Assembly: GCF_020076305.1 (NCBI RefSeq)
Contig: NZ_JAIQXE010000001.1
Span: forward strand, 620,001 to 684,000
Direction: 5' to 3'
Source: Flavihumibacter profundi
Lineage (GTDB): Bacteria > Bacteroidota > Bacteroidia > Chitinophagales > Chitinophagaceae
Length of the DNA stretch: 64,000 nt
A program made the position numbers and the translations under genes. Position 1 is the first letter of the stretch. Every line of letters starts with the position of its first letter. Of the stretch, positions 16,700 to 41,558 are shown one piece after another. A model generated the notes under the pieces. That model was not told the DNA's origin. It searched no databases and worked only from the letters and a program-made list of their open reading frames with translations.

Positions 16700-17980
16700 A
16701 TGGGTTTGTATGTTAAATCTTTCAGTTGTTGTTTGCTGATTGCGGTGTTTTTTTTTGCTGCCTGTAAACCCAAAGCCAAACTGGTCCCAACGGAAAAGTT
16801 TGAATTCAATTCCTTTGTGGATTGCAATATGGCTACTGTCTGGGTTGGCGACACTTTCCGGATTTTCCCGGGTAAATATGGCGAAGATCCGCTATGGGGG
16901 GATGCCCATGAACTGAAATATGCCAGTGGAAACACGGTGGATGAGGCTTTCAGCCGTCGTTCAAACGAATTTACTGAGCCGGTCATGCCAATGAATGCAG
17001 CTGTTGGGAAGGAAGGATTGCATGGGGCCGTTTGGTTTGAGACCCTGTTCCAGGATAAAAATGATACTTCAGGCAAAACTATTTATGCCTTATACCATAA
17101 CGAAAATTATCCATCTACATTACCCTATGATTCCATTTCGGGTGTTGGTTACCGTGATATTGACTGGCCGCAGGGATTGAAGGGCCCTGAAACCAAAACT
17201 GCAGTATGCAGGATAGGGATCATGAAATCAACGGATGGTGGCAGAAGCTGGTCTAACCGGGGTATTGTGCTGGAAGACTACCAGCCCAGGCTGATTTTGC
17301 GTCCAAACAATACAGGGATCAATTTTGCCGGTGGCGTTGGTGATCCGTCGGCAGTGGCCAATGGCGGTTACCTCTATATATTTTACGGCGAATACGGCTA
17401 TCCGGGTGAATACAACCCGGCAACCTATGATCCGTCTTTCGAATGGAAAGGCCAATGTATCAGTATGGCAAGGATTGCACTCGCAGATCTTGACAACCCG
17501 GTTGGTAAAGCCCGGCGTTGGGATGGAAAGGGATTTAATGCAGCGGCAACGGGAATTGGAGTTCCTGTTAGTGCTATCCGGATACCACGTGAAAATGGCG
17601 GCGGGCCTGCTTCTTCCCCTGTTGCAAAATACTATTGGGGCCCATCTGTAAGTTGGAACAATCATTTGAAATGCTGGGTGATGCTGATGGCGAAGGCCGA
17701 GGGACCGTCCTGGAAAGGCAGCAGTATTTATATTTCCTTTAATCCAAATGCTGACCTTGGCCAGGGAGATAATTCCCAGCAATGGTCAAGGCCGGAATTA
17801 TTGCTCGATAAACCCGGCCATATCTTATGGTATCCATCTTTACAACCTGTTAACAGTGCAGTTGATAAAGCCAAAAAATACACATCATTGAACCTTGGGA
17901 AAACTGCAAGGTTGTTTTTCAAGGACCAGTTTGGCGGCCAGAGTCCATATGTATCGGAATACCTGGTTGAGTTTAAGTAA
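16700..17980 (+). CDS. Lipoprotein with predicted beta-propeller (GH43/DUF4185-like)
   Basis: A lipoprotein signal peptide ends at Cys22 (FFFAAC). The mature 400-residue domain has sequence patterns of a five-bladed propeller hydrolase fold: VGDPSAVANGGYLYIFYGEYG, KYYWGPSVSWNN and HILWYPSLQP, plus an Asp-box-like STDGGRSWSN. This resembles DUF4185 or distant GH43-clan proteins, and I cannot separate these by eye. It precedes a GH97 gene by 17 bp, so the two are probably co-expressed. A surface-exposed glycan-binding or hydrolase role is likely but unproven. Confidence 0.65.
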   Translation: MGLYVKSFSCCLLIAVFFFAACKPKAKLVPTEKFEFNSFVDCNMATVWVGDTFRIFPGKYGEDPLWGDAHELKYASGNTVDEAFSRRSNEFTEPVMPMNAAVGKEGLHGAVWFETLFQDKNDTSGKTIYALYHNENYPSTLPYDSISGVGYRDIDWPQGLKGPETKTAVCRIGIMKSTDGGRSWSNRGIVLEDYQPRLILRPNNTGINFAGGVGDPSAVANGGYLYIFYGEYGYPGEYNPATYDPSFEWKGQCISMARIALADLDNPVGKARRWDGKGFNAAATGIGVPVSAIRIPRENGGGPASSPVAKYYWGPSVSWNNHLKCWVMLMAKAEGPSWKGSSIYISFNPNADLGQGDNSQQWSRPELLLDKPGHILWYPSLQPVNSAVDKAKKYTSLNLGKTARLFFKDQFGGQSPYVSEYLVEFK

Positions 17981-20001: not shown

Positions 20002-22230
20002 TTATTTCCGGATCATTTTCAGGTAACGTCCCATCCAGTAAGGCAACAACCAGAACACGGGTTCCCTTTCCATAGTGGGGTGGCCTCCGACTGCATTCCA
20101 GGGGTTTTTATCCCAGCGTACAACCATCCTGATAGATGCAGGTGGTAAAACATTTACCTGTAAATCATTGAGTACCGGTTCATGCACAAGGGTGATATCT
20201 TCCCTTTTTGTATGGTCAATATGCCAGTCAATTAAATCCAGCGGGGTGTCGGTTAAGAAATCTATGGAAGCAGGCAATTCGCGCTGCTTATTTGCTGCAT
20301 AGCAATACAGGAAATTGAGCAGCGGGTTTTTGTCATTTATCCGACGCGCCATCCATTGCTCCAAATGTTGCTGGTAAAATGCCAGGAGTTCAGGATCCTT
20401 TTCGCAATGCAATAAAATAGGGTATATGTATGCTTGTAAGCTAACATCAAAGTAAATAAACCAACCGGGGTTTTGCTGGAAAATCTTTGCCATATTATCG
20501 AGATAGTGCTCTTCTTTGATAAGCCGCAGGTAATTTTCCTGGTACTTCATCTTCCCGGTCATATAATAAGCCAATTTCAAAAAAGCCAGCAGTTCCATGG
20601 AATTCTGGTACTGGTCTGGCTGCCATTCAGGATCCCTGTTAAGTGATTCCGGTGACCATACAGACCAGCGCGTGTGCGTACCATCAACATCTACCATATT
20701 GAAATTATGGGCAATCAGGTGGTCCACTAATTTGGCGACATGTGTTCGTACCTGTTCTTTCTCTGCTTCATCTGCCGCAAGTTCATAATAAAAGTAATAG
20801 CCCATCATATGCCCGCACCATTCATCACTGCTGGCATCACCCTTCCAAAGCCATTTGCCATCTGCAGATTTTCTCCAGCGGATTTCCACTGGTTTATTCC
20901 GGGGCTCAATTACCATTTCATCAGCAAGTTCCCTTTCAGTATAAGTCCGGTTTGGATCATGCACACGGTCTCCCCATTCAACGGGCACAATAGTGCGGGC
21001 AAAATATCCGTCACCACCAGTGATCTCCTCAAGCTTCTGTAAGAAATGGTAGGCTTTTTTTGCCTTTTCCCGGGCGTCATCATCTTTGGTGGTAGCATAG
21101 CGGAAGGATTCCATTGCGAGATAGTTGCCTGTGTATTCACCATCATTATCATCATCTTCAGGCTGCCATGAATTGACATCCCCCGGAATGGTCAGGCGAC
21201 AGTAACCGGCAATCCATGGCGCACGGATATGTCTTTTCATCAATACATCATAGAAATAATCCTGTTTGCCGGCAAGTGTCATTTTCTTTTTCATGATGGC
21301 ACTAACGCCGTTGTCAGTAGCCACCCAGGCATTGCCATCTGCATCAAAGGCGATATCATTAACATGGTCATCCAGCAACCATCGCCTGCTGAACAAAAGG
21401 GAATGTTTGCCATTTAATGAAAACCGGGCAATCCCAACATTTGTACCAATCCATATAGTGCCATTTTCATCTTTCTTCAAACAGTTTACAAACCTGGAAG
21501 GGCAACCATCTTTCGGAAGGATTACTTTTTCTTTCACATCCTTATACAAGATACTGACCCCGCCAAGACCGCCTGCCCATAACCTGTTACCTGCATCAAT
21601 TGCCAATCCGTTAATGTATGCACTTACCAGGTAAGTGGTGTCAACAAAATGATTTAAACCATTAGGTGTACAATGATATAAACCAACATCAGTAGCCACC
21701 CATACGCCATAGTTATTATCTGATATTATTTTCCTGACAGACCTTCCAATGGCATAGTTGAGCTTTACAAATGATTGTCCGTTGTAGCGCCATAAGCCTT
21801 TTGGGCCGGCTGCATATAAACCTTCTTTTGCAGTACATACAGCAGCTATAGGACCTTCTGTTCCATTCAGCAATTTCAGGGAATTATTTTTGAAGGAATA
21901 AACACCTTTCCAGGTTCCCATCCATACATCTCCCTGGTTGTTTGTTGCAATGCTGAATGCAGGACCGTTTTCAGCTGGCGGAAATGGTGAAGACCACAAT
22001 TTTTCATTTGCTTTTTTCAGCAACACGCCAGATTTTGTTGCGATCCATACATTGCCATCTTTGTCAACAGCAATGCTCCTGGCACCTGCATCCATATTAT
22101 CTGCAGTAACAGGATAGGGGCTATGGTATTCTTGCCAGAATGTAGTGTCTGTAAATGAATTCTCCTGTGCATTTGACAGCAATGAAACAGGCAATATAAA
22201 AATTAAGATAAATAGGTATCGCATTGTCAA
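20002..22230 (-). CDS. Secreted seven-bladed propeller plus alpha/alpha-toroid-like protein (copy 1)
   Basis: The 742-residue protein has a signal peptide ending near SNAQ (residue 22; Met3 is an alternative start). Residues about 45-330 contain seven repeats of the two-component-regulator propeller type: VWIATKSGVLL, VWMGTWKGVYS, LYAAGPKGLWRY, VWVATDVGLYH, LWAGGLGGVSI, IWIGTNVGIAR and AWVATDNGVSA. No histidine kinase follows. Instead there is a 400-residue mostly helical region with DDDNDG (about 360-366), WLWKGDASSDEWCGH (SSDE at 467-470), PLDLIDWH and the C-terminal LLPYWMGRYLKMI. This region looks like an (alpha/alpha) toroid of the kind found in glycan hydrolases and lyases. It is downstream of the HGSNAT-like gene in a two-gene unit and has a paralogue at 32160. 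I know no named family for the fusion. Confidence 0.7.
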   Translation of the reverse strand: MTMRYLFILIFILPVSLLSNAQENSFTDTTFWQEYHSPYPVTADNMDAGARSIAVDKDGNVWIATKSGVLLKKANEKLWSSPFPPAENGPAFSIATNNQGDVWMGTWKGVYSFKNNSLKLLNGTEGPIAAVCTAKEGLYAAGPKGLWRYNGQSFVKLNYAIGRSVRKIISDNNYGVWVATDVGLYHCTPNGLNHFVDTTYLVSAYINGLAIDAGNRLWAGGLGGVSILYKDVKEKVILPKDGCPSRFVNCLKKDENGTIWIGTNVGIARFSLNGKHSLLFSRRWLLDDHVNDIAFDADGNAWVATDNGVSAIMKKKMTLAGKQDYFYDVLMKRHIRAPWIAGYCRLTIPGDVNSWQPEDDDNDGEYTGNYLAMESFRYATTKDDDAREKAKKAYHFLQKLEEITGGDGYFARTIVPVEWGDRVHDPNRTYTERELADEMVIEPRNKPVEIRWRKSADGKWLWKGDASSDEWCGHMMGYYFYYELAADEAEKEQVRTHVAKLVDHLIAHNFNMVDVDGTHTRWSVWSPESLNRDPEWQPDQYQNSMELLAFLKLAYYMTGKMKYQENYLRLIKEEHYLDNMAKIFQQNPGWFIYFDVSLQAYIYPILLHCEKDPELLAFYQQHLEQWMARRINDKNPLLNFLYCYAANKQRELPASIDFLTDTPLDLIDWHIDHTKREDITLVHEPVLNDLQVNVLPPASIRMVVRWDKNPWNAVGGHPTMEREPVFWLLPYWMGRYLKMIRK

Positions 22231-22263: not shown

Positions 22264-23394
22264 TTAAATTTTGAGAAATATTTTCTTCCTGTACATTAGG
22301 TAAACCGGAATGTAGCAAAAGAGGCAATACAATAAAGCCCATAACAATGAAATAAATTCCGGGGATAATCCTGATGGCAATACTGCATTAATAATGGTTT
22401 CATTCAGGCTCGTGCCTTGTTTTCCACCAAACCTGTAATATATAACATCGTAGAATATTTCTGAAGCCAGGTAAGCCGCAATCGCATTGGAACCAAAGAC
22501 TACCGCGAACTTCGACCATTTTTTTATTCCGAGTACATCGACAAGGAAATATAAAAAAGCCAGCATCATACTGTCTAGTCCTGCTGTATATAAAACAAAT
22601 GAGCTGGTCCATAAATTCTTATTGATCGGGAAGAACCAATTCCACGCGTTGGCAATTGCAAAGGATATAAAGCCCGCAAAGAAAAGCCAGATGATTTTTC
22701 GTTCAGCGGTATTCTTGCTGAGCAATAAATGTCCGGCCAGCATACCGGCAATGCCTGTTACAATAGCAGGAAAAGTACTTAGCACTCCTTCAGGATCCCA
22801 GGTGCCGTTGAACAATTTTCCCGGGATAACCAATTGGTCGATCCATGCAGCAAGGTTCTTTCCGGGCTCAAGGATGGCATATCCATATCCTGGCACAGGG
22901 ACAACTGTCATCAGTAAAAAATAAGCCAGCAAAATGCTTATACCCAACCTGATTTGAAATTTTTTCGTTGTGTTCAGGTATAATAGGGAACAACAAAAAA
23001 ATACAATTGAAATACGTTGCAATACTCCAGTTATCCTCACTTTGGAGAAGTCGAAGGTTTGCAGTATACTGAGCAGTACACCCAGCAAAAAAAGTATGAC
23101 AACCCTTCTTAGTATTTTCCTCAGGATGAATTTTTTCGCAATGCCATTTTCCAATTGCTTTGAACAGGAGAGTACAATGGAAACACCAACAATAAAAATG
23201 AACGAAGGGAAAATATAATCTGTTGGTGTAATCCCATTCCACTCGGCGTGCTTTAATGGCCCATAAATACGTGACTCTATCCCCGGATCATTAACGAGGA
23301 TCATCGCGGCCATTGTGATACCCCTGAAAATGTCCAGGGATAATAATCGTTTGCCCTTCTCCAGGGGCAAAACCGTAGCTGGATTATGCTGCAT
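22264..23394 (-). CDS. HGSNAT/NagX-like transmembrane acyltransferase (DUF5009)
   Basis: The 376-residue protein has about ten membrane helices. The N-terminal RLLSLDIFRGITMAAMILVN and LKHAEWNGITPTDYIFPSFIFIVG are the hallmarks of the heparan-alpha-glucosaminide N-acetyltransferase/DUF5009 family; the His in LKHAEWNG lies where the family has a proposed acetyl-accepting residue. The human relative transfers acetyl from cytosolic acetyl-CoA to glucosamine across a membrane. The bacterial relatives are often in glycan loci and may modify amino sugars in the periplasm. It is followed after 33 bp by the first propeller-toroid gene, so the two probably form an operon. Confidence 0.87.
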   Translation of the reverse strand: MQHNPATVLPLEKGKRLLSLDIFRGITMAAMILVNDPGIESRIYGPLKHAEWNGITPTDYIFPSFIFIVGVSIVLSCSKQLENGIAKKFILRKILRRVVILFLLGVLLSILQTFDFSKVRITGVLQRISIVFFCCSLLYLNTTKKFQIRLGISILLAYFLLMTVVPVPGYGYAILEPGKNLAAWIDQLVIPGKLFNGTWDPEGVLSTFPAIVTGIAGMLAGHLLLSKNTAERKIIWLFFAGFISFAIANAWNWFFPINKNLWTSSFVLYTAGLDSMMLAFLYFLVDVLGIKKWSKFAVVFGSNAIAAYLASEIFYDVIYYRFGGKQGTSLNETIINAVLPSGLSPEFISLLWALLYCLFCYIPVYLMYRKKIFLKI

Positions 23395-23543: not shown

Positions 23544-23605
23544 TATTAGATTAATCGTTGAATGGTAGAATAACCAACTTTTAATAATTGTTGCATATAA
23601 AAAAC

Positions 23606-24793
23606 ATGAAAAGACAATTCATTTATTTCTTGCTCCTTCTTCTGATGGCAAATGATTCTTTTGCGCAGACTTCTGCACAAAAACTTACCCCTGTTTCCAG
23701 CTCACTGATATTTCCACCGCAAAGCAAGCATACCCATGGCAGTAGCCTGGTAGCCCTTCCAAATGGTGATTTCTTATGTGCATGGTTTATGGGAAGTGGC
23801 GAACGTACTGCTGATGACGTGAAAATTATGGGTGCGCGCCTGCAAAAAGGCGCAAAAGTGTGGAGTGAACCATTTGAGTTAGCGGATACTTACAATATAC
23901 CAGACTGTAATCCGGTTCTATTCCTGAATAGCAAAGGAAAACTTTTCTTAGTCTGGATTGCAGTGAATGCTAACCAGTGGGAATCTTCGGTCTTAAGATT
24001 TAAAACATCTTCCGATTTTTCAAAACCAGGCCCACCTGCCTGGAACTGGCAGGATAATATTTTACTTAAGCCAAATGACAATTTTGTATCAGAAGTTGCT
24101 AAAAATTTTAAATTTTTGCCAGAACGCGGAAAGGGATGGTCCGCCTATGCTCCGTCATATGATGCAATGATCATTGAGGCCAGTCACGATATAAAAAAAC
24201 GGAGCATTGGGTGGATGACCCGCATTAAACCCCTGGTCCTGGATAGTGGAAAAATTTTACTTCCCCTTTATTCTGACGGCTATAATTTTTCAATGGTCGC
24301 TATATCTGATAATGACGGAACAACCTGGCGCCCCAGCTTGCCAATTGTTGGAAGGGGCAATGTACAGCCAGCTCTCGCGCTAAAGAAAGACGGCCGTATT
24401 GCAGCGTACATGCGGGATAACGGGGATTCACCCGCACGGGTTCAGGTTAGTGAATCCGGCGATAAGGGGGAAAGCTGGTCTGTGGCAACAGAATCGGAAA
24501 TCCCGAATACGGCCAGTGTTGAATTACTTGTTTTAAAGGACGGGCGCTGGGCTTTCGTGGGAAATGATATCGAGGATGGCCGGTATAGAATTGGCCTTTT
24601 TATTTCAGATGACGAAGGCAAAACCTGGAAATCGAAATATTACCTGGAAAATGAAGCGCCTGGAAAGGGAAGTTTCTCTTATCCATCGCTGATTCAGGCG
24701 ACAGACGGGCTTTTACACATAACTTATTCATACCAAATGGATAAGACAGGTGAAACCATTAAATATGTGGTGGTTAACCCCAGGCAGTTATAA
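23606..24793 (+). CDS. Sialidase/BNR-repeat family secreted protein
   Basis: The ATG at 23606 starts MKRQFIYFLL, a signal peptide ending near SFAQ; an upstream TTG at 23588 is less likely. The mature protein is a six-bladed propeller of the BNR/sialidase type with Asp-boxes (SDNDGTTWRPS, SGDKGESWSV, SDDEGKTWKSK) and the N-terminal HTHGSSLVALPNGDFLCAWF typical of the BNR_2 group. True sialidases need an Arg triad plus Asp, Tyr and Glu, which I cannot confirm by eye; some relatives act on other sugars. It lies just upstream of the sigma/FecR/SusCD locus and GH20, which suits a host-glycan or glycoprotein target. Confidence 0.78.
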   Translation: MKRQFIYFLLLLLMANDSFAQTSAQKLTPVSSSLIFPPQSKHTHGSSLVALPNGDFLCAWFMGSGERTADDVKIMGARLQKGAKVWSEPFELADTYNIPDCNPVLFLNSKGKLFLVWIAVNANQWESSVLRFKTSSDFSKPGPPAWNWQDNILLKPNDNFVSEVAKNFKFLPERGKGWSAYAPSYDAMIIEASHDIKKRSIGWMTRIKPLVLDSGKILLPLYSDGYNFSMVAISDNDGTTWRPSLPIVGRGNVQPALALKKDGRIAAYMRDNGDSPARVQVSESGDKGESWSVATESEIPNTASVELLVLKDGRWAFVGNDIEDGRYRIGLFISDDEGKTWKSKYYLENEAPGKGSFSYPSLIQATDGLLHITYSYQMDKTGETIKYVVVNPRQL

Positions 24794-26661: not shown

Positions 26662-29600
26662 ATGAAAAAGAAGTATGCTTTACTGAGATTCTTGCCTGCC
26701 TTATTGATGGGCATTCTCTTTATGATGGTGTCGCCCTTAAACACTATCGGACAAAATCTTGCAGCCGATGCTTCGGTGGTGCAAGATGCTCCGGAAGAAA
26801 TGGGCGCAAAAACAATTTCCCTGGAACTGTTTATGCAGAAATTCCAACGTGTTTATAACGTGTATTTCAGCTACCAGGCAGTTTCCTTAAAGGAAATTAA
26901 AGTGACTGATATTAATATAGAAGGTAACCGGCAGCAAGACCCGGACCAGCTATTAAAAAAAGTATTGAATCCTGCAGGATTAACCTATGAAAAAGTAAGT
27001 AACGTTTACGTTATCAAACAAATCCCGGAGCCGAAACTGGTCCTCACAAAAAACGAAATTACCGCCCCGGTTGATTTTTTAGTTAAAGGATCAGTGAAAG
27101 ACAAGAATGGTGCCCTGGCAAATGTTACCGTTTCTGAAAAAGGTACCACAAATGCTACAACAACAAATGCAGATGGCCGGTTTAGCCTGAATGTTGCGTC
27201 CCCAAACGCAACACTTGTATTTAGTTATGTTGGCTATAAGGCAGTGGAATTGAAAATAAACGGACAGTCTGATGTAATTGTACTGCTTGAAGCACAGGTA
27301 TCTGAACTTTCTAATGTTGTGGTGACAGCGCTGGGTATTACCCGCAATAAAAAATCCATGGCCTATTCAGTTGGTGAAGTAAAAGCGGAAGACCTGGTAA
27401 AAGCCGGCAACCCAAACGTGCTTAAATCCCTGGATGGAAAAGTAAGCGGAGTGAACTTTACCAACCTTAGTAGCGATCCTACCTCCTCTGTTTTAGTGAA
27501 TATAAGAGGTACCACAGCAATGCCCACAAAGAGTAATGCCAATGTTGCTATTAGTGGTCAACCGCTTTATGTTATTGATGGTATACCAGTAGGAGCTCAA
27601 ACATTCACCAATAAAAACGGGGTTGATTTTGGTAATATCCTTTCGCAGTTGAATCCGGAGGATATTGATAATATCACCATTCTTAAGGGTGGTAGTGCTG
27701 GTGCCTTGTATGGTGCAGATGGCGGTAATGGTGTTGTTATGATCACCACCAAAACTGGCAAGGGCCGCAAAAAAGGGCTCGGCGTTAGCTTTAACTCTTC
27801 CTCTGTTTGGGACAAACCCACCGATTTTATTGAGGAGCAAATGGAATATGGCCAGGGTGAAAGGGCTTTCGAATGGCAATATGACAATACAGATACCTGG
27901 GGACCAAAACTGGATGGTAAATTCTCAGGCGACTACTGGGATACCAAACAGCAAAAATGGCTCAATAAAAGTATGACTTCTTCCATGGAAAACAGGATGC
28001 AGGCATACCTCCAGACTGGTAATACCCTTTCGAACACAATCGGCGTGTATGGTAATTATGATAAGGGATCATTCCGCTTCTCCTTTGGTGATATGAATAA
28101 TAAAGGAGTGATGCCAAATACTAAAACAGACCAGAAGTCAATTAGCCTGAACACAGATTACAGGATTACTGATAAAGTTAAATTAACTGTTAGCTCCAGT
28201 TATATCCATACTTTATCCCCCAATAAAGCAAACAGTGTTGGTTCAAACAGCGTGATCAATAACTTATTGTTCAACTTCCCGGCCAACCTGCAACCTTTGA
28301 GCGAAATGACAAATTACTGGCTCACAGGCTATGAAAATATCCAGCAAAATGGCGCCATTATGAAAGATAATGGCCTTGATGTGGATACCGACAATCCATG
28401 GTGGTCGACTTATGAGAAAATTAACCGGTTTGGCCGCGATAATTTCTTTGGGAAAGTGCAGTTAGACTGGCAATTGAGCAAGCCATTGGCCCTGGTAGTG
28501 CGTACCGGTATGGAAAGTGTAAAAGAAGAATACGAATACCGTCAGTCATGGGGTAAAACCAAGATGGCAGATAAGTTTAAAACCGGTGACGGGCAGTATA
28601 TTACTGGAACGAATAGCATGGCTATCTATAATACTGATGTTATTCTTACCTACAATAAAAATTTCGGAAAGTTTTCCCTGAATGCTTTTGGCGGTGGAAA
28701 TTACCAGTATACTAATAACAATAGCCTGGAAATGAATGCAGCGAAATTATCTACTCCTGCATTATTTACACTTAATAATGCTATGCCGGGACAATTATTC
28801 GTATCCCAATCTGGTTGGGCAACAAGTCAGACATATAGTCTTTATGGTAGTGCAAGTGTTGGTTACGCAAACCAGTTGTTTTTGGATATAACAGGTCGCA
28901 ATGACTGGAAGGGTATTTTGCCGGAAGAAAAAATAAATTATTTCTATCCGTCAGCTTCCTTAAGCTGGGTAGCTTCAGAAACGTTTAAACTTCCTGAAAT
29001 TTTTAACCTGGTTAAGGGAAGGTTGGCCTGGGCAGATGTAGGTAACGGACTAGTAAAACAAAGGTCAGTAGACACCTATTCTTACGATCCGAGCAATTGG
29101 GGTGCAGCTAAAACCGTAAGTATTAATGCTACATTGGTTGACCCTAATATTAAGCCAATGCACTCTATTACACAGGAAGCAGGACTTGATATCTGGATGC
29201 TGCAAAATTTGCTCAAATTTGATTTCACTTATTTCATAAAAGACCAGAAAGACCAGATTGACAATATTCCTACTGTACCGGGTACAGGTTATCCTGGTAT
29301 GCTGACTAATATTGGTGATGTGCGTAGCAAAGGATATGAAATGGGCTTAACGATTAACCCGGTTAGGACAAAAGACTGGAACTGGACAATTTCCGGAAGC
29401 TTTACCCATTACAAAGCAACAATCACCAGGCTTTCTGACCAGTTTGCACCAAATGGTTATGTATTTGCAGACTATGATGGAAAAACAAGGGTGAAGATTG
29501 CTGTTGGTGAAGAAATTGGAAATATTTATGAGCAAAACCCAATCCTTAGGGTTAAAGAAGGAAAATATGCCGGAATGCCACTACTCGATGGAGCTGGCGG

Positions 29601-30351
29601 GGAATTCCAGACTTCAGGTGATGAAAAAGACCGTGGTAAATTGGGTAATTATAACCCTGATTATATTGTGGGCTTTAACACGACTTTGCGTTATAAGCAG
29701 TTCGCGCTTAACCTGGTAGGTAGTTACAGGAAAGGTGGTAAATATGTTTCTGTTAACCAGCAATACCTGGAATCAAACGGTAGGGTATCAACTACCCTGG
29801 GTTCTGGTCCTAATAACCCCTGGTGGATGGGTGGAAGGGATGCTGAGCATGGTGGATTACCATGGCCAGCTGCAGGATCCAGCCAGTATGAGGCTATCAA
29901 TACTAATAATGATGGCCAGCGCGCAGACTGGAGTGATGCCAGTTATGCAAAAGGCGTTTTTGTTAACCCGAATTTTACTGGTGATAAGCCAACCGATGCA
30001 GACTATATAGTTAATGGCGCAGATCCTAACAATACCTTTTACCAGTTTGCTTATAATAGCTATGGAGATGTTATCTGGGATTTTGCTGCAACAAGAACCT
30101 ATAGCGCAACCAACTTCAAAATGAAAGAAATTTCATTGGCTTATACAGTACCAGCCAGTCTGACCAGCAAATACAAGCTTAATAATTTAACCCTGTCGTT
30201 TATCGGAAGGAACCTCATCCAGTGGAACGAATCAGGCCGTCACGAAGATCCTGAATCTGCCTTCAGTGGCGTAGGTACAGGCCTTGGCGTGCTTAGGGCT
30301 ACATTGCCCAGCATTCGTTCTTATGGCTTCAAACTTTCCGTTGAATTTTAA
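26662..30351 (+). CDS. SusC/RagA family TonB-dependent outer-membrane transporter with STN domain
   Basis: The 1229-residue protein starts with a signal peptide, followed by an STN (secretin/TonB short N-terminal) signalling domain at about 50-120 (ISLELFMQKFQRVYNVYFSY). A carboxypeptidase-like beta-sandwich (VKGSVKDKNGALANVTVSEK) comes next, then a plug (LKSLDGKVSGV; PLYVIDGIPVG; ITILKGGSAGALYGADGG) and a large barrel ending YGFKLSVEF. It imports oligosaccharides through the outer membrane with the SusD lipoprotein that follows 28 bp later. The STN domain allows regulation through FecR and the ECF sigma factor encoded just upstream. It is complete and of normal length. Confidence 0.96.
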   Translation: MKKKYALLRFLPALLMGILFMMVSPLNTIGQNLAADASVVQDAPEEMGAKTISLELFMQKFQRVYNVYFSYQAVSLKEIKVTDINIEGNRQQDPDQLLKKVLNPAGLTYEKVSNVYVIKQIPEPKLVLTKNEITAPVDFLVKGSVKDKNGALANVTVSEKGTTNATTTNADGRFSLNVASPNATLVFSYVGYKAVELKINGQSDVIVLLEAQVSELSNVVVTALGITRNKKSMAYSVGEVKAEDLVKAGNPNVLKSLDGKVSGVNFTNLSSDPTSSVLVNIRGTTAMPTKSNANVAISGQPLYVIDGIPVGAQTFTNKNGVDFGNILSQLNPEDIDNITILKGGSAGALYGADGGNGVVMITTKTGKGRKKGLGVSFNSSSVWDKPTDFIEEQMEYGQGERAFEWQYDNTDTWGPKLDGKFSGDYWDTKQQKWLNKSMTSSMENRMQAYLQTGNTLSNTIGVYGNYDKGSFRFSFGDMNNKGVMPNTKTDQKSISLNTDYRITDKVKLTVSSSYIHTLSPNKANSVGSNSVINNLLFNFPANLQPLSEMTNYWLTGYENIQQNGAIMKDNGLDVDTDNPWWSTYEKINRFGRDNFFGKVQLDWQLSKPLALVVRTGMESVKEEYEYRQSWGKTKMADKFKTGDGQYITGTNSMAIYNTDVILTYNKNFGKFSLNAFGGGNYQYTNNNSLEMNAAKLSTPALFTLNNAMPGQLFVSQSGWATSQTYSLYGSASVGYANQLFLDITGRNDWKGILPEEKINYFYPSASLSWVASETFKLPEIFNLVKGRLAWADVGNGLVKQRSVDTYSYDPSNWGAAKTVSINATLVDPNIKPMHSITQEAGLDIWMLQNLLKFDFTYFIKDQKDQIDNIPTVPGTGYPGMLTNIGDVRSKGYEMGLTINPVRTKDWNWTISGSFTHYKATITRLSDQFAPNGYVFADYDGKTRVKIAVGEEIGNIYEQNPILRVKEGKYAGMPLLDGAGGEFQTSGDEKDRGKLGNYNPDYIVGFNTTLRYKQFALNLVGSYRKGGKYVSVNQQYLESNGRVSTTLGSGPNNPWWMGGRDAEHGGLPWPAAGSSQYEAINTNNDGQRADWSDASYAKGVFVNPNFTGDKPTDADYIVNGADPNNTFYQFAYNSYGDVIWDFAATRTYSATNFKMKEISLAYTVPASLTSKYKLNNLTLSFIGRNLIQWNESGRHEDPESAFSGVGTGLGVLRATLPSIRSYGFKLSVEF

Positions 30352-30379
30352 ATTATTAATGATCGAATAAATAAATAAT

Positions 30380-32029
30380 ATGAAATCTTTAATTATAAAA
30401 TCACTGGCAATCGTTTCTATAGCCGCTCTTGCATCCTGTAGTAAAGATGCCCTTAGGTCTTATGACAAGAAGCAACAACTGGATGCTGTAGAATCTGTAA
30501 ATGATCCGTTCCTGCTTTCTTCTGTTATCAAGCAAACAAGTCTTTTTTACCAGGGCTTTGGTTATGATAACAGCAAACTGCCAGCTGCAGTGCAATACAT
30601 GCAGAGGAATTTCCAGGGTGGTGATAACCTGTATAACGGGTTTAAACAACCATCTGATGATATGTATGCAGCTTTGAATATCCTTAAGCTAATTGATGGC
30701 GCCATCGGTCTGACACATGATAGAGGTTCAAGTACACATGAAGGTATTTTCACGACTTTCAGGGTGTTGCTGTTTTCTTACATTACAGACTTCTATGGTG
30801 ATATTTATTATACCGAAGCGCTGAAGGGTAGGGAAGGTATTCTTTATCCCAAGTATGACCACCAGCAGGATATTTACACTGGTCTGCTGGCAGAACTTGA
30901 CAATGCCAACGCTCTGATCGCAAGCGGCACTGAACCCTTATCAAGTACTTACGACCTGATGTTCGCCGGTGATAAGGTAAAATGGCAAAAATTCACCAAC
31001 TCATTAAAGCTTCGTCTTTTAATGCGTGCATCAGCCAAGATGCCGGATGCGGGAGCTAAAATGTCTGCAATTCTCAGTGACCCGTCCCAACCCATCTTTA
31101 CAGAAGCTGATGATAATGCTTCCATTCCATTTGTTGGGGCAACAGCCGAAAATTCCTGGAAGGGTGGTACCAATAACTGGCCTGATGATGAGGAGTTCGA
31201 TAAAAGAAGGCCTTGTAAAACGCTGGTGGATAAACTGGCAAGTTTAAATGATCCGCGTATGCATGTTTGGATTGCCCCTGTTGAAAAACCCTGGACCAGT
31301 AATAAATCCCTTGATGGTGTTAGCTTTACAACCACAGATCCTAATGGATATAGCTATACTTCAACCTGGGAATTAATAGACAGGAATAAGGCGGAAATTG
31401 CGGCCCAATCTGAAAATATCCTGGACTCTAATAAAGTTTATGCCGGCTTTATTGCAGGTATGCCCGGTGACTGGAAAAACGGTAATGGCCATTACGATGT
31501 AGAAGCTGGAGGTGTTGTGGGTAATTTTAAAGTGTCCAGGTATTCTAAATTATTCCGGGAAAATTCGCACCCACTGCTTAAAGCAATGGTCATGAACAGC
31601 GATGAAGTACAATTCATCCTGGCAGAAGCTGCTGCTAAGGGAATGATTACTGGCGATGCCGATGCTTATTACAGGAAAGGCATTACTTATTCACTGCATC
31701 GCTGGGGTATTTCAGATGCAGATATTTCTACCTATTTAGCACAGCCTGCTATTGCTTTACCAGGTGGTACTACCCCGAATCTGGAGAAAATTGCTGACCA
31801 GAAATGGCTGGCCCTATTCTTTGTTTCAACAGAATCATACCTTGATATCCGTCGTACAAAATTGCCCAATATCTTCCAGAATGGTAATCTGGGTACCCGC
31901 GATTTCCCGGTACGGTATCGTTATCCGGGTGCTGAAATCGGTCAAAACAAAGACGCATACGATGCAGGTGTATCTACCCTGTCACCAGCAGTAGATAATG
32001 AATTTTCAAAAATGTGGTTATTGCAATAA
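30380..32029 (+). CDS. SusD/RagB family glycan-binding lipoprotein
   Basis: The 549-residue protein has a lipoprotein signal with Cys20 (AALASCSKD). The mature part begins with the DPFLLSSVIKQTSLFYQGF-type N-terminus of the 'SusD/RagB nutrient-binding outer membrane lipoprotein' subgroup. It also shows TPR-like helical segments (KWQKFTNSLKLRLLMRAS) and a C-terminal QKWLALFFVSTESYLDIRRTKLP, the classic SusD signature. It forms the lid on the SusC transporter encoded directly upstream. A hairpin lies 33 bp after its stop codon. The ligand is not predictable, but the GH20 gene in the locus favours a hexosamine-containing glycan. Confidence 0.94.
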   Translation: MKSLIIKSLAIVSIAALASCSKDALRSYDKKQQLDAVESVNDPFLLSSVIKQTSLFYQGFGYDNSKLPAAVQYMQRNFQGGDNLYNGFKQPSDDMYAALNILKLIDGAIGLTHDRGSSTHEGIFTTFRVLLFSYITDFYGDIYYTEALKGREGILYPKYDHQQDIYTGLLAELDNANALIASGTEPLSSTYDLMFAGDKVKWQKFTNSLKLRLLMRASAKMPDAGAKMSAILSDPSQPIFTEADDNASIPFVGATAENSWKGGTNNWPDDEEFDKRRPCKTLVDKLASLNDPRMHVWIAPVEKPWTSNKSLDGVSFTTTDPNGYSYTSTWELIDRNKAEIAAQSENILDSNKVYAGFIAGMPGDWKNGNGHYDVEAGGVVGNFKVSRYSKLFRENSHPLLKAMVMNSDEVQFILAEAAAKGMITGDADAYYRKGITYSLHRWGISDADISTYLAQPAIALPGGTTPNLEKIADQKWLALFFVSTESYLDIRRTKLPNIFQNGNLGTRDFPVRYRYPGAEIGQNKDAYDAGVSTLSPAVDNEFSKMWLLQ

Positions 32030-32104: not shown

Positions 32105-32159
32105 TTATAAATACATGCTTGCCACATATTTCAATAGTTTATCCCAACATTCACAAAGC

Positions 32160-34325
32160 ATGAGAAAATCCTTTTCCTTCCTTACTACTTTCGTACTTCT
32201 TTTCGCACAAATCATTTGTTTTGGTAATCCTGCGAATGAGCCTGTCTATAAGCAACCTGTTTCAATTCAATACAGTTTACCTGAAACCTTAAAAGGGGCT
32301 ATCCTGAAAAAAGTGGTAGTCGATTATAACGATAATGTTTATGTGCTGACTAATAAGGGTGTTTACCGCACGAACGGGAAAGACCTGGTAAAAGATTTTC
32401 GGTATACACCTATTGCAGAAAAAAAACCGCTGGATATTACCATACAGGAAAATACCGGTCACTTGTTTTACCTCTATGAGGAAAAATGGCTGACAAACGG
32501 CTATGCCGGTGTGCCTTACCTCAATATACCCAAAGGGAAATTTGACCAGCTGGCAGTGGCTGCAGATGGCACTGTTTTACTGGTTGGCGCAAATGCCGTA
32601 TCCCTCTGCAGGGATGGCAAGCTGACAGAAATTAAAAAGCCTGCCGATAAGATAAATGCAGTGCAGGTGAATAACGGAATTTTCTATGCCCTGAGTGCAA
32701 ACGGAGTATATAAACTCTCTGATGACCATTTTACACAAATCCATAAAGGTAATGGCCTGCAGGCTATGGCTTTAAGGGAAAACGAAATTGTGCTGGGCAC
32801 AACCAAAGGCTATTATGGGATCAATAAATTGAATGGTGATTCAAGTTTCTCATTACAAACCAAAGTGCCGGTTGAAAATATTTCCTGCCTGCAGGTAATT
32901 GACAATAAAGTTTGGGCTGGTACACCAATGGGTGCTTTTATGAAAGAGCCCGCCGGAAACTACAGGTATTATGCTTCCAGGAGATGGTTGAATGAGGATA
33001 AGGTAATTGCTATGGCGGCTGACAGCAAAGGTGATGCTTATTTCTTATCACCATCCGGATTAAATAAAATTGAATTTATTCCTTTTACACTTTTAGATAA
33101 GGCCAATTTATTCCAGGATCAAATCAGGCAAAGGCATATCCGGTATGGCTTTATTTCAAATGTAACCCTGCAATCACCTGGCGACCTTGCTTCGGCAAAA
33201 ATGACCGATACAGATAATGATGGCCTCTGGTCTTCTTTTTATCTCGGCAGCCAGGCATTCCGTTACGCTGTTACCGGTGACAAAAATGCCAAGCGTTACG
33301 CCTGGGAAGCTTTTGAAGCTTTTGAAAGAATTATTTCCATAAACCCTTTGAAAGGCTTTCCTGCAAGGACCTTCGAACGGAAAGGTTTTAAAGTTGGTGA
33401 ACCGGCTGCCTTTCGCGACTCACAGGACCCTGAGTGGGAATGGAAAGGAACCACCAGCAGTGATGAATTTTGCGGCTATATTTTTATTGCATCCGTACTG
33501 AATGAAATGGTTGCAGAAACAGAAAGCGAGAAAAAAAGGGTGGCAGATTTTATAGATAAAATCCTTACCCATATTATCGATAATAATTATTATTTCGTTG
33601 ATGCCGATGGCAAACCCACTTTATGGGGAAGATGGAACCCTGAATATATCAACTCCTTCCCGGAATCAGTAGAAGACCGGAAACTTGGTAGTGCCCATAT
33701 CCTCGCCGGACTTCAGTTAGCATATGCATTAACTGGAAAAGAAAAATACAAGACTGAAGCGTATAAATTAATTAACGAGCACGGATACCTGAAGAATATG
33801 ATGGTGAGCTATACCAAAATAAAAGAGACCCCGGGTACCATCCGGATGGGCATCGACCTTGGTATTGGTGGCTGGAACCACTCTGATGATGAAATGGCTT
33901 TTTTGACTTACTGGCCATTATACCGTTATGCGTTTACCCCTGAATTGCAGGAACAATACAAGTGGGTAATTACAGACCACTGGCAGATTGAAAAGCCGGA
34001 AAGGAATGCCCTTTGGAACCTGATCTCCCTGGCAACGGCCGGCGTTTGTGACGCGCCATCTGTTAACTGGCATTTGCAGGAATACCCGCTTGACCTGGTT
34101 AGATGGAATGTTAAAAATTCGCACAGGAAGGATATCGTCCTGCTTCCTGCAAATTTCAGGAAACAATCTACTGAGGTACTTTTGCCACCGGGCGAAAGGC
34201 CAATGAACCGCCACAATGCGAATGCTTTTGAACTCGACGGCGGCGAAAACGGTATGTCCGAGCTGGCTGGTGATGAATACCTTTTGCCTTATTGGATGGG
34301 GCGTTACTTAAAAGTGATAGAATAG
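32160..34325 (+). CDS. Secreted propeller plus alpha/alpha-toroid-like protein (copy 2)
   Basis: I chose the ATG at 32160, which begins the signal peptide MRKSFSFLTTFVLLFAQ; the frame is open back to 32115, which would add 15 unlikely residues. The protein is a diverged paralogue of the product at 20002. It has about seven degenerate propeller repeats (VYVLTNKGVYRT, VLLVGANAVSL, FYALSANGVYKL, IVLGTTKGYYG, VWAGTPMGAFM, AYFLSPSGLNK). A helical region follows with DTDNDG (352-355 for DNDG), WEWKGTTSSDEFCGY (SSDE at 433-436), YPLDLVRWN and the C-terminal LLPYWMGRYLKVI. It follows SusD and begins the enzyme operon, so it is probably a periplasmic or surface glycan-acting protein. The catalytic role is inferred only. 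Confidence 0.7.
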   Translation: MRKSFSFLTTFVLLFAQIICFGNPANEPVYKQPVSIQYSLPETLKGAILKKVVVDYNDNVYVLTNKGVYRTNGKDLVKDFRYTPIAEKKPLDITIQENTGHLFYLYEEKWLTNGYAGVPYLNIPKGKFDQLAVAADGTVLLVGANAVSLCRDGKLTEIKKPADKINAVQVNNGIFYALSANGVYKLSDDHFTQIHKGNGLQAMALRENEIVLGTTKGYYGINKLNGDSSFSLQTKVPVENISCLQVIDNKVWAGTPMGAFMKEPAGNYRYYASRRWLNEDKVIAMAADSKGDAYFLSPSGLNKIEFIPFTLLDKANLFQDQIRQRHIRYGFISNVTLQSPGDLASAKMTDTDNDGLWSSFYLGSQAFRYAVTGDKNAKRYAWEAFEAFERIISINPLKGFPARTFERKGFKVGEPAAFRDSQDPEWEWKGTTSSDEFCGYIFIASVLNEMVAETESEKKRVADFIDKILTHIIDNNYYFVDADGKPTLWGRWNPEYINSFPESVEDRKLGSAHILAGLQLAYALTGKEKYKTEAYKLINEHGYLKNMMVSYTKIKETPGTIRMGIDLGIGGWNHSDDEMAFLTYWPLYRYAFTPELQEQYKWVITDHWQIEKPERNALWNLISLATAGVCDAPSVNWHLQEYPLDLVRWNVKNSHRKDIVLLPANFRKQSTEVLLPPGERPMNRHNANAFELDGGENGMSELAGDEYLLPYWMGRYLKVIE

Positions 34326-34340
34326 TTTAAATTGCTGTAT

Positions 34341-35042
34341 ATGAAACCAATTGTTCAGATTTCCCTCGATTTAACCAATATTGACGAAGCTTTAGAGACT
34401 GCCGCAATGGCTATGCGTGCCGGCGTGGACTGGCTGGAAGCCGGAACCCCGCTGATCCTGGCGGAAGGCTTGCGCGGCGTCCGGTTATTGCGCGAGGCTT
34501 TCCCGAATGTTCCTATTGTGGCTGACCTGAAAACAATGGATGGCGGTTACCTCGAAGCGGAAATGATGGCGAAAGCCGGCGCCACCCATGTAGTGGTTAT
34601 GGCAAGGGCCCACGAAGAAACCATTAAGTGTGTGGTACAGGCCGGCCGTGATTTTGGTGTTAAAGTAATGGGCGATAACCTTGGTTGTCCCGATATGGTT
34701 GCAGCTGCAAAGTGGCTGGAAGACCTTGGATGTGATTATGTAATCCATCATATCGGTTACGATGAAAGGAGGGGCATAGCTGCCCGTGGATTACGCATGC
34801 CCAGTCCGTTAGACCAGCTGCGCGAAGTGGTTAATGCCGTGAAAATCCCTGTACAGGCAGTTGGTGGCTTGTCCCTGGAACAGGCCATTCAATGTCCGGC
34901 TTATGGTGCTCCGCTTGTTGTTCTGGGCGCACCTTTAACCATTGATGCCGATGCTTTTAAAACTGCCGATGGCAACCTGGAAGCATCACTCCGCATGATA
35001 TGTTCAACCATTCATGGTTACGGGGATGTTACTGTTAAATAA
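34341..35042 (+). CDS. HUMPS/KGPDC-family decarboxylase or aldolase (orotidine decarboxylase superfamily)
   Basis: The ATG at 34341 gives MKPIVQISLD; TTG 34332 is less likely. The 234-residue TIM-barrel protein carries the superfamily active-site set: Asp10, Glu33 (WLEAGTPLI), the DxKxxD motif ADLKTMDGG (Asp62, Lys64, Asp67) and His136 (YVIHHIGYD). These match 3-hexulose-6-phosphate synthase and 3-keto-L-gulonate-6-phosphate decarboxylase. The C-terminal phosphate-binding loop reads VVLGAPLT, without the Arg used by KGPDC. The enzyme may therefore act on a different or unphosphorylated sugar; this is inference. It is followed after 28 bp by a zinc-type dehydrogenase gene, suggesting sequential oxidation and decarboxylation. 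Confidence 0.8.
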   Translation: MKPIVQISLDLTNIDEALETAAMAMRAGVDWLEAGTPLILAEGLRGVRLLREAFPNVPIVADLKTMDGGYLEAEMMAKAGATHVVVMARAHEETIKCVVQAGRDFGVKVMGDNLGCPDMVAAAKWLEDLGCDYVIHHIGYDERRGIAARGLRMPSPLDQLREVVNAVKIPVQAVGGLSLEQAIQCPAYGAPLVVLGAPLTIDADAFKTADGNLEASLRMICSTIHGYGDVTVK

Positions 35043-35070
35043 ACATGATTAATCTAATAAACGTTCTGAT

Positions 35071-36105
35071 ATGTCTACGATAAAATCTGCAGCGGTAATC
35101 AATTACTCATCTGCAAAAGGATCCGTTGAAATAAGGGAAATAGCAAAACCCGAAATTGGCGAAGAGGATGTGCTGCTTGAAGTGGCCAATGTTGGTGTTT
35201 GTGGTAGTGACCTGCACCAATGGACTGCTGACCATAGCTGGACCGTTAATTACCCGGTAGTGCTGGGCCATGAATTCGGCGGGCATATCGTTGAATTGGG
35301 CAGCCGTGTTGCCAACTGGAAAATTGGTGACAGGGTAGTCAGTGAAACTGCAGCGGTTGTGAATATGGCCAGTCCTATGTCCAGGATTGGTTTGTATAAC
35401 CTTGATCCCGACCGTAAAGGATTTGGTTATGGTGTGAATGGCGCCATGACAAAATATGTAAAAGTGCCTGCAAGATGCCTGCACCGTGTTCCGGATGAAC
35501 TTCCTTTCGAACAGGCCTGCCTGACCGAACCCTGTTGCGTGGCGTATAATGCAGTTGTAAATAATTCCGGTATTAAACCCGGCGATCGTGTTATTGTGAT
35601 CGGACCCGGAACCATCGGCATTTTGTGTGCAGCTGTTGCGAAACTTTGTGGCGCACAGGTTGCTGTAACCGGATTGGAAGCTGACCGCAAAAGGTTGGCC
35701 ATTGCCGAACAATATGGTTGCGAATCTATTGTTGGTGATGCAACAGAATGGGCAAGAAAAGTTGATGGTTTGGGTGCAGATGTAATTATTGATGCAGCAG
35801 GTACAAGCTTTACACTGAAAATTGCCCTCGACCTGGTTCGCCCTAACGGACATATTACTAAAGTTGGATGGGGCCCCCAGCCACTGGGCTTTTCCCTTGA
35901 TCCGCTGGTACAAAAAAATATCACCTTACAGGGAAGCTTCAGTCATAACTGGCCTGTATGGGAAAAAGTAATTGCTCTGCTTGCAAGCGGGCAACTGGAT
36001 GTTAAACCTATTATTGGTGGTGTATGGCCAATAACAGAATGGCACGAAGCATTCGAAAAAATGCACAAAGGTGAAGTCGTGAAAAGTGTTTTAAAACCAG
36101 TATAA
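35071..36105 (+). CDS. Medium-chain (zinc-type) alcohol dehydrogenase lacking structural-zinc cysteines
   Basis: The 344-residue protein has the catalytic zinc motifs GVCGSDLHQWT and LGHEFGGHI and a Rossmann motif VIVIGPGTIGILCAAVA. It resembles sorbitol/butanediol/threonine dehydrogenases. The lobe that normally holds four cysteines reads SETAAVVNMASPMSRIGLYN, then LDPDRKGFGYG, with no cysteine at all, unlike the dehydrogenase at 13205 in this same window. The catalytic site looks intact, so activity is likely. The gene is flanked closely by the HUMPS gene and an SDR gene (3 bp), which implies a role in a multi-step sugar oxidation. Confidence 0.85.
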   Translation: MSTIKSAAVINYSSAKGSVEIREIAKPEIGEEDVLLEVANVGVCGSDLHQWTADHSWTVNYPVVLGHEFGGHIVELGSRVANWKIGDRVVSETAAVVNMASPMSRIGLYNLDPDRKGFGYGVNGAMTKYVKVPARCLHRVPDELPFEQACLTEPCCVAYNAVVNNSGIKPGDRVIVIGPGTIGILCAAVAKLCGAQVAVTGLEADRKRLAIAEQYGCESIVGDATEWARKVDGLGADVIIDAAGTSFTLKIALDLVRPNGHITKVGWGPQPLGFSLDPLVQKNITLQGSFSHNWPVWEKVIALLASGQLDVKPIIGGVWPITEWHEAFEKMHKGEVVKSVLKPV

Positions 36106-36108
36106 TTT

Positions 36109-36909: not shown

Positions 36910-36918
36910 TTATTGCGC

Positions 36919-37809: not shown

Positions 37810-37819
37810 TAAAAATTAC

Positions 37820-38422
37820 ATGAAGACGATTTGCTTTTCACTATTACTTTCTATGATGAGTTTTGCCGGCCTTGCCCAACAACCAGCCCAGGCTGTATCC
37901 AATAAGACTGCCAAAAAATGGGTCAAAAAAAAGGAATGGGCAAATGGTTTAGCACTTGAACCCCATCAAACAGTAAATAAGCCTGCGTTTTATACAGCCT
38001 ACCATACCAACCAAAAATGGTGGGATGCGGCTTTCGCTTTTTTAAAGGAACAAAACCTGGATGAAATAAAACCCGGTAAGTATCCTATTGTTGGTGAAGA
38101 TGTATTTGCCTCTGTAACTGAAGCACCATCCCATCCAAAGGAGGAAGTGAAGTGGGAATCACACAGGAAATATATCGACCTGCAGTATATAATAAAAGGA
38201 AAGGAAATCATTGGTATTGCAGATGCATCAAAGGCTACCATTACAAAACCATATACGGTAGATGTGGTCAATTATACGGCAGACGGAAAGTATTATACCA
38301 CAGAACCTGGTAAATTCTTTTTATTTTTTCCCAATGATGCCCATCGCCCGACCATTAAGGCAGAAGGTTATGATGTGGTAAAGAAAATTGTAATTAAAAT
38401 AAGGGTGGACGCTAATCAATAA
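37820..38422 (+). CDS. YhcH/YjgK/YiaL family protein with signal peptide
   Basis: The 200-residue protein has a Sec signal peptide (MKTICFSLLLSMMSFAGLAQ). A YhcH/DUF386 cupin-like domain follows, with SHRKYIDLQYIIKGKEIIGIAD and KFFLFFPNDAHRPTIKAEG; the His in NDAHRP is a family metal ligand. Cytoplasmic relatives are associated with sialic acid or 2,3-diketogulonate operons and may act as sugar mutarotases/isomerases. Export is unusual for the family. It lies 34 bp before the NAL/DHDPS-type gene, an association also known from nan operons. An N-terminal insertion of about 40 residues (TAKKWVKKKEW region) precedes the domain. Confidence 0.85.
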   Translation: MKTICFSLLLSMMSFAGLAQQPAQAVSNKTAKKWVKKKEWANGLALEPHQTVNKPAFYTAYHTNQKWWDAAFAFLKEQNLDEIKPGKYPIVGEDVFASVTEAPSHPKEEVKWESHRKYIDLQYIIKGKEIIGIADASKATITKPYTVDVVNYTADGKYYTTEPGKFFLFFPNDAHRPTIKAEGYDVVKKIVIKIRVDANQ

Positions 38423-39533: not shown

Positions 39534-41558
39534 ATGCGCAAGACTATTTTGTTGCTTGTTTTTTGTATTGCCCTGGTGCATTTGTTTGCGCAGGACAATA
39601 CCTATAACCTCATGCCGGTTCCCAGGTCGTTGAAAACACATGGGAACTCTTGTGCCATCAATAAGCAATTCACCATTGGTATTATTGGACATCCGGGTGA
39701 CCGGGTTTATAAAGAAGCTTCCAGGGCTTTAAGGCGGCTCGACAACCGGATGGGATTTTTCTTCACCCAGGGTAATATTACCCCTAAGGATTCCAGCTCT
39801 TCCGCAACACTGTTGATTGATGTGAAGCGCAAGGCCGAACTGAATTTACAGGAAGATGAGAGTTATCATTTAATTACGGGTTCAAAACAGGTGAAGATCA
39901 CTGCCAATACTGATCTTGGCGCAATACGGGCATTGGAAACCCTCCAGCAGTTGGTTAGTGTGCAAAAGGGGGGCTACTATTTTCCTGGCGTAGAGATTTA
40001 CGATGAACCGCGTTTTCCCTGGCGCGGCCTGTTGCTTGATATAACCCTCCACTGGATGCCGATGGATGTGGTAAAACGAACCTTGGATGCAATGGCTGCC
40101 GTTAAGCTGAATGTGTTTCACATGCACCTTACCGAGGACCAGCTATTTGGCATTGAATCAAAAGTTTATCCAAGGTTAACCTCTGTTGGCGCCGAGGGTA
40201 ATTTTTATACGCAGGAAAATATAAAGGAGATTATAGCCTATGCCGACCAGCGGGGTATCAGGATTGTGCCTGAGTTTGATGTGCCCGGCCATTGCACGGC
40301 CATGCTGAAAGCGTACCCGCAACTGGCCAGTGTGCAACGCGACTATGAACTGCAACGGTATTATGGGGTTTTCGATCCTGCGCTCGATGTTACTAAACCG
40401 TATACCTATGCGTTTTTAGATACCCTGTTTACAGAAATGGCTGCCTTATTCCCGGATGAATATTTTCATATCGGCGGCGATGAAAATACCGGCAAGGACT
40501 GGGACCGCAATCCCGAGATTAAGGCTTACATGCAGCAAAAAGGCATGACCACTTACCGCGAACTCGAGACGGAATTTATCAGCCGGTTGCTGCCGATCCT
40601 GAAAAAAAACGGCAAGAAAATGATGGGCTGGGATGAGATTTTCCGCCCGGGTGTTCCGCATGATATTATGATACAGTCATGGCGGGGTTTGGAATCATTG
40701 GTAGATGCTGCCAGGCAGGGATATACAAGTTTGCTATCTACAGGCTATTATATTGACCTGATACAACCCACAGATTATCATTACCTCGTAGATCCTGTTC
40801 CGGTTAACACGCCGCTTACAAAGGAAGAGCAAAAATTTATTGTGGGTGGGGAAGCTACCATGTGGACGGAACATGTAACGCCGGAAACAGTGGATTCCCG
40901 TATCTGGCCAAGAACTGCGGCTATTGCTGAGCGTTTGTGGTCATCCCAGTCGGTAAATAATGTGGATGATATGTACCGGAGACTGGATAAAATTGATTTA
41001 TACCTGGAAGGCCTGGGTACAACGCAGTTAAAAAACAAAGGCATGCTGATGCGCAGGCTGGTTAACGGCTACAATACCCAGGCACTGGAAGTATTGGTGA
41101 ATGTAATTGAGCCATTGAAGCTGTATGAAAGGAATGAAGGGGATACCATGTACACGGTATTTTCTCCCTATACCAAAATTGCTGATGTAGCAACGCCCGA
41201 CCAAAAAACAGCAAGGGAATTCAGGAAGCTGGTTGCCGCTTTTTGCCAGTCGAAAGACGCTAAGGTGGTTCCCGAACTACGGAAAAGCCTTGAACTATGG
41301 AAAAATAATGATGTTGCTTTTCAAAAACTAATACAACAATCCCCGGTACTGAAAGAAGCAGCTAATTTGTCTGAACATTTAGCTCAGATCGCAAAAGTTG
41401 GCATTGAAGCGTTGCAATTTATTACCTCTGGTAAAAAGCCGCCACTGGGTTGGGAGACGAAGAGCCTGCAAATTACCAAAAAAGCAAAAGAACAGGGGGG
41501 GCGTTGTGAATTGCAGGTTGTTACAGCCATTGAACAATTGGTCAAAACCGCATTATAA
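39534..41558 (+). CDS. GH20 beta-N-acetylhexosaminidase
   Basis: The 674-residue protein has a signal peptide (ending near HLFAQ, residue 20). The GH20b non-catalytic domain (YNLMPVPRSLKTH start) comes next. The TIM barrel holds the catalytic Asp316-Glu317 pair in HIGGDE, with FPWRGLLLDITLHWMP, PEFDVPGHC and MMGWDEIF as supporting motifs. GH20 enzymes release terminal beta-linked GlcNAc or GalNAc through substrate-assisted catalysis. A C-terminal region of about 170 residues follows the barrel. It starts 12 bp after the NAL-type gene, in the same operon, and implies a hexosamine-containing target. Confidence 0.95.
   Translation: MRKTILLLVFCIALVHLFAQDNTYNLMPVPRSLKTHGNSCAINKQFTIGIIGHPGDRVYKEASRALRRLDNRMGFFFTQGNITPKDSSSSATLLIDVKRKAELNLQEDESYHLITGSKQVKITANTDLGAIRALETLQQLVSVQKGGYYFPGVEIYDEPRFPWRGLLLDITLHWMPMDVVKRTLDAMAAVKLNVFHMHLTEDQLFGIESKVYPRLTSVGAEGNFYTQENIKEIIAYADQRGIRIVPEFDVPGHCTAMLKAYPQLASVQRDYELQRYYGVFDPALDVTKPYTYAFLDTLFTEMAALFPDEYFHIGGDENTGKDWDRNPEIKAYMQQKGMTTYRELETEFISRLLPILKKNGKKMMGWDEIFRPGVPHDIMIQSWRGLESLVDAARQGYTSLLSTGYYIDLIQPTDYHYLVDPVPVNTPLTKEEQKFIVGGEATMWTEHVTPETVDSRIWPRTAAIAERLWSSQSVNNVDDMYRRLDKIDLYLEGLGTTQLKNKGMLMRRLVNGYNTQALEVLVNVIEPLKLYERNEGDTMYTVFSPYTKIADVATPDQKTAREFRKLVAAFCQSKDAKVVPELRKSLELWKNNDVAFQKLIQQSPVLKEAANLSEHLAQIAKVGIEALQFITSGKKPPLGWETKSLQITKKAKEQGGRCELQVVTAIEQLVKTAL

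Follow-up and report, generated by a model that had tools for sequence, protein, structure and literature searches.

The open reading frame at 20002..22230 (minus strand) of the window probably encodes a secreted protein which, judged from its sequence and predicted structure, may be a hitherto uncharacterised enzyme that degrades sugar chains. The window is the whole stretch of 64,000 nucleotides analysed here (Flavihumibacter profundi, contig NZ_JAIQXE010000001.1, positions 620,001 to 684,000). The protein consists of a beta-propeller of the Reg_prop type followed by a C-terminal half that is, in the structure model, an (alpha/alpha)6 toroid resembling those of glycosidases and epimerases and that fits no family that could be matched. 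It is read here, with a probability of roughly 60%, as a secreted or periplasmic carbohydrate-active enzyme whose toroid is catalytic and cleaves hexosamine-containing glycans. An earlier note, made from the sequence alone, had described a propeller followed by a helical C-terminal half; this observation is confirmed, and both halves model well (whole protein: predicted local distance difference test, pLDDT, 95.0; predicted template modelling score, pTM, 0.92). Residue numbers are counted from the ATG at 22224.

Fold of the C-terminal half and comparison with known families

Residues 310-740, modelled alone, gave a pLDDT of 95.3 and a pTM of 0.94. The toroid-like fold that the earlier note had proposed was thus recovered by structure prediction and fold search, and its proposal of a new family agrees with the finding that none of the Pfam and NCBIfam families reaches its cut-off in this half. 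The best Foldseek matches of the toroid are sugar 2-epimerases; the glycoside hydrolase (GH) family GH146 structure 6yqh matches with an E-value of 8.1e-3.

Profile comparison with hhalign covered GH127, AGE, GH88 and GH76 (43 rows in all; AGE 15, GH76 10 and GH88 just 4 sequences). GH127 is the nearest of the four (probability 36.6%), followed by AGE (14.1%), GH88 (2.4%) and GH76 (1.3%). Compared with each other, the four families give 92.6% (AGE-GH76), 74.2% (GH88-GH76), 68.5% (GH127-GH76), 22.3% (GH127-GH88), 16.3% (GH127-AGE) and 11.2% (AGE-GH88), so that the score of the toroid with GH127 lies within the range found between families (11.2-92.6%).

Family members were searched as a set of 113 sequences (111 of the 117 open reading frames at the loci described below, plus the two window proteins; alignments A2 and A3). 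The GH127/GH146 beta-L-arabinofuranosidases, which have a catalytic Cys/Glu and a zinc site, have the toroid fold in common with the protein (hhalign 13-37% over 58-171 columns), and their family PF07944 is detected at E <= 0.1 in 10 of the 113 members (best 0.0017); it is not listed at this threshold for the 20002..22230 protein itself. AGE and cellobiose 2-epimerases, which use a catalytic histidine pair, reach 7-14% by hhalign, and GH76 alpha-1,6-mannanases 1-3%; PF07221 and PF03663, respectively, are found in none of the 113 members at E <= 0.1. Profile searches of the PDB gave 5opj (E 0.0029, 58 positions), 4c1s (0.013) and 6ccz (2.7) with the broad alignment, one match with alignment A3 (E 1.2) and two with alignment A1 (about 0.4). 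Like PF07944, the 5opj match is a weak sequence signal towards GH127/GH146. Acetyltransf_6 was rejected (a single match below cut-off on the 20002..22230 protein). DUF2750, matched by 4 of the 113 relatives (best E 0.00029), was taken as chance, without proof. None of the papers found by searching the open-licence PMC library describes a Reg_prop-toroid protein, as far as titles and abstract openings show.

Family, clades and architectures

A contig scan of GTDB representatives found that at least 566 of 589 stretches encode a relative; one gene may count twice, because two peptide patterns were used. Locus analyses include the best 80 of these stretches and therefore lean to near kin; 79 loci are counted, L085 being left out as the caller returned no family reading frame there. 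Among whole genomes, family members are present in 5 of 99 relatives and, within the same phylum, in 6 of 296 (the window's own genome is counted in both). In the phylum of L091 (titled Planctomycetes), 33 of 199 genomes, its own included, gave matches (E 1e-192 to 9e-4, many partial). The plasmid collection gave no match at E <= 1e-3.

In the tree, a branch with a support of 99 divides clade A (72 sequences) from clade B (41); the placement of L087, which sits on a very long branch, is unsure. Both clades are found together in 40 of the 79 loci; in 36 of these B shares the strand of A and lies downstream of it, and in 15 the two are directly adjacent. A single A copy stands alone in 38 loci and two A copies are found in one, some loci being cut by contig ends. 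The genome of the window carries three copies of the propeller-toroid family.

The propeller-toroid fusion claimed for this protein holds, with the correction that the propeller is one among several partners of the toroid and is sometimes absent. Stand-alone toroids are encoded by open frames of 428-438 amino acids (aa) (L161, L162, L167) and 461-489 aa (L184-L187); the latter, from a Planctomycetes sample, show by eye a lipobox-like cysteine near the N-terminus. In L163 the toroid is joined to an FGE-sulfatase domain (1.8e-43). The 1079 aa product of L168:945-4181, from the genome of L086 (titled Nitrospiraceae), includes BNR_2 (3.4e-60), Reg_prop (7.3e-7) and the toroid in one chain and matches the window's two copies with E 3e-71 and 7e-71. 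In L164:1044-3677 and L165:449-2956, a BNR-type propeller seems, by eye, to interrupt the toroid ahead of its final YW-x-GR helix. L180-L183 have frames of >1000 aa in GC-rich contigs, with long upstream stretches that are possibly spurious. L021:7076-15767 and L022:11351-15892 include open frames of 1408, 1484 and 1514 aa; the last two each match the toroid twice, so double-copy proteins may exist.

Conserved residues and candidate active site

Twenty toroid columns are invariant across the 113 sequences (see Table 1 for the motifs). Among the 32 members of a wider set, 14 of them near and 18 distant, conservation is broadest for G406, R410 and S465 (32/32) and D467, Y729, W730, G732 and R733 (each 30/32); W520 is kept in 23.

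The active site of toroid enzymes is usually found at N-terminal helix ends. In the model, DDDNDG precedes one helix, SSDE opens another, D593 starts a third and P-Y-W lies on the last, which places the conserved acidic and aromatic residues at or just before such ends. This placement is topological and follows the predicted secondary structure. D593 is a candidate second acid; W520 and W523 are possible sugar-stacking residues.

The loop D357-D-D-N-D-G362 matches, as a sequence motif, the Dx[DN]xDG calcium-loop pattern, and it may hold calcium. In the excerpted text of PMC3123361, such a loop is described in the alpha/alpha toroid glycosidase YgjK, which has the same fold type and is likened here by motif only. 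Against this likeness, the loop is not kept in the stand-alone toroids of the 32-member set; E468 is not kept there either. Of the two acidic motifs that the earlier note had described as kept in the paralogue, S465-x-D467 is widely kept, whereas DNDG is restricted to the propeller-linked subfamily.

Propeller half

Pfam detects Reg_prop (PF07494) with E 1.7e-18, four stretches passing; together with the model, this bears out the seven repeats counted earlier as a seven-bladed propeller. In a sequence search of the PDB, the propeller matches 4a2l (9.5e-24) and 3v9f (1e-21), the remaining five matches having E >= 0.16. The ectodomains of the hybrid two-component sensors BT4663, BT4673 and BT3049 (4a2l, 3ott/3va6, 3v9f) have the Reg_prop propeller in common with this protein and are among the closest solved matches of its N-terminal half, both by sequence and by fold. 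These sensors carry a kinase, whereas the 20002..22230 protein has the toroid as its C-terminal half instead. No histidine kinase or response regulator family is listed by Pfam in the whole protein up to E 10; the kinase-sensor reading was rejected, as the earlier note had held. The type IX secretion protein PorZ was also rejected (NF052228, 40.2 bits for a cut-off of 260); the only other match in the NCBIfam scan reached 14.3 bits for a cut-off of 175. The propeller residues R281-W282-L283 (21376-21384, minus strand) are kept in both clades, the propeller being otherwise variable; they are perhaps a domain interface in contact with the toroid.

Gene neighbourhood

Genes related to amino sugars (GH20, NagX-like, YdjC, NagB/PIG-L) recur near family members. 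The NagX-like product of the window matches PF07786 above cut-off (2.7e-9); NF046061 (NagX) gives 2.7e-61, yet 207.7 bits for a cut-off of 480. The region also includes GH97 and GH29. The third copy in the genome lies near a GH20 gene (8.7e-126) and a gene for a glucosamine-isomerase/PIG-L protein.

The BNR_2 protein at 23588 is 31% identical to the L168 product (E 7e-42), and the single fusion in L168 hints that BNR_2 genes and the propeller-toroid family are functionally linked. Its matches to PDB sialidases are weak (best 3.1e-5), and it was not retained as a true sialidase.

Neighbours in the 79 loci (adjacent ones in brackets) include BNR_2 19 (16), YdjC 16 (15), DUF3748 16 (16), NagX-like 9 (8), GH20 7 (5) and Gfo/Idh 25 (4); SusC is found in 23 loci and a UxuA cluster in 11. 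Neighbour names are the Pfam families of one representative per cluster or of the window member.

Other genes of the window were also observed. Behind SusC/SusD and the clade B copy, 34332-39521 is a cassette for sugar enzymes, with hexulose-phosphate-synthase-like, alcohol dehydrogenase, short-chain dehydrogenase/reductase, TIM-barrel, YhcH and dihydrodipicolinate synthase-like genes. The dihydrodipicolinate synthase-like aldolase at 38457 is closer to DapA than to NanA, and no sialic-acid pathway is therefore claimed. The Gfo/Idh protein at 41622-43079 is near the BT_2158 glycoside 3-dehydrogenase family (NF058561, 5.3e-145, 483.7 bits for a cut-off of 750). The 426 aa open reading frame at 16700-17980, between an AraC-type regulator and GH97, has no Pfam or NCBIfam match at E <= 0.001.

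Table 1. Features of the propeller-toroid protein and neighbouring genes in the window
Feature	Position	Strand	Remarks
Propeller-toroid protein, clade A	20002..22230	-	Open reading frame; 742 aa from TTG, 740 aa from ATG at 22224
Putative N-terminal signal peptide, ~20 residues	22165..22224	-	By eye; low pLDDT there in the model
7-bladed Reg_prop beta-propeller, residues 29-315	21280..22140	-	
Predicted (alpha/alpha)6 toroid, residues 316-740	20005..21279	-	Separate model and fold matches
DDDNDG loop (357-362)	21139..21156	-	Just before a helix; D359, D361 113/113, D357 109/113
R410	20995..20997	-	113/113; 32/32 near and far members
WKGDASSDE (460-468)	20821..20847	-	S465, D467 113/113, E468 109/113
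D514-G-x-x-T-x-W-x-x-W-x-P loop	20650..20685	-	G515, W520, W523 invariant in alignment A2
D593, near helix start	20446..20448	-	113/113; 25/32 in wider set, N in 5
R674-x-D676	20197..20205	-	Each 113/113; each 26/32 in wider set
P-Y729-W730-M-G-R733-Y, last helix	20023..20043	-	Y, W 113/113, R733 106/113
NagX/HGSNAT-like transmembrane hexosamine N-acetyltransferase	22264..23394	-	Upstream, same strand, 33 bp gap
BNR_2 sialidase-like protein	23588..24793	+	PF13088 2.1e-47
SusC and SusD pair	26662..32029	+	Pfam
Paralogue, clade B	32115..34325	+	Directly downstream of SusC/SusD; 28% identity, E 2e-66
GH20 beta-hexosaminidase	39534..41558	+	PF00728 1e-93

Proposed activity and alternatives

As a glycan-cleaving enzyme, the protein would have its active site in the toroid, at the N-terminal ends of the inner helices, and the propeller would either have a structural role or guide the substrate. 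The likeliest catalytic acid would be D467 in the S-x-D motif. R410 would assist it, as would E468 and D593 in the propeller-linked subfamily. Sugars would stack on W460, W520, W523 and W730, and the DxDNDG loop would possibly contribute a bound calcium. The target of the enzyme would be a glycosidic bond in glycans that contain hexosamine, and it would work alongside GH20, BNR sialidase-like proteins and the NagX-like N-acetyltransferase, clades A and B acting on different linkages of one glycan. A broader proposal is given slightly less than an even chance. According to it, the toroid would define a new family of carbohydrate-active enzymes that has G406/R410, S465-x-D467 and Y-W-x-G-R as its core. 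Judged by record titles, this family is found in Bacteroidota, Planctomycetes, Nitrospirota and candidate division KSB1, either by itself or fused to Reg_prop, BNR or FGE domains. Clades A and B would be ancient Bacteroidota paralogues, kept in the same loci for consecutive steps on amino-sugar glycans, and the neighbouring NagX-like protein would first N-acetylate exposed glucosamine.

Several observations weigh against glycan cleavage of this kind. Neighbours vary: GH20 is found in only 7 and NagX-like genes in only 9 of the 79 loci, others having GH78, GH92 or sulfatases. The neighbour counts are raw, without background comparison, and many loci are close kin; 13 of the 80 are titled Dyadobacter, so the loci are not independent. 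The BNR fusion was found once only (L168). In two distant members, L164 and L165, H replaces D467. The nearest folds of the toroid include epimerases as well as hydrolases.

The same substitution of D467, in 2 of the 32 members, counts in favour of a non-catalytic secreted glycan-binding protein, SusE/F-style or a sensor freed from its kinase, whose propeller and toroid capture oligosaccharides. The propeller, which by sequence best matches sensor ectodomains (4a2l), and SusC, present in 23 of the 79 loci, also point to binding; the charged and aromatic residues kept without exception in a fold mostly used by enzymes, and the existence of toroids without a propeller argue the other way, and a binding protein is considered unlikely. 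The 2-epimerases at the head of the Foldseek matches raise the idea that free or terminal sugars are epimerised or isomerised, a reading to which a small probability is given. About as improbable is a polysaccharide lyase, the toroid performing beta-elimination on uronate-hexosamine chains; this overlaps with the favoured glycan-cleaving enzyme in that a chain is cleaved too. The toroid fold is known from several lyase families, conservation extends to R410 and Y729, and the UxuA cluster accompanies 11 loci; toroid lyases, however, use a His/Tyr/Asn catalytic set, from which the most widely kept residues here (R, S-x-D, YWxGR) differ, and Pfam Alginate_lyase is matched by just 2 of the 113 members (best E 0.035). 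Hydrolysis is inferred to be likelier than elimination or epimerisation.

Significance

If the protein is an enzyme, a large unlabelled family would join the carbohydrate-active enzymes, proteins likely named regulators after their propeller would have to be re-read as enzymes, and the sensor propeller would be seen to be reused outside signalling. The candidate catalytic residues and the pairing of clades A and B make the enzyme idea directly testable.
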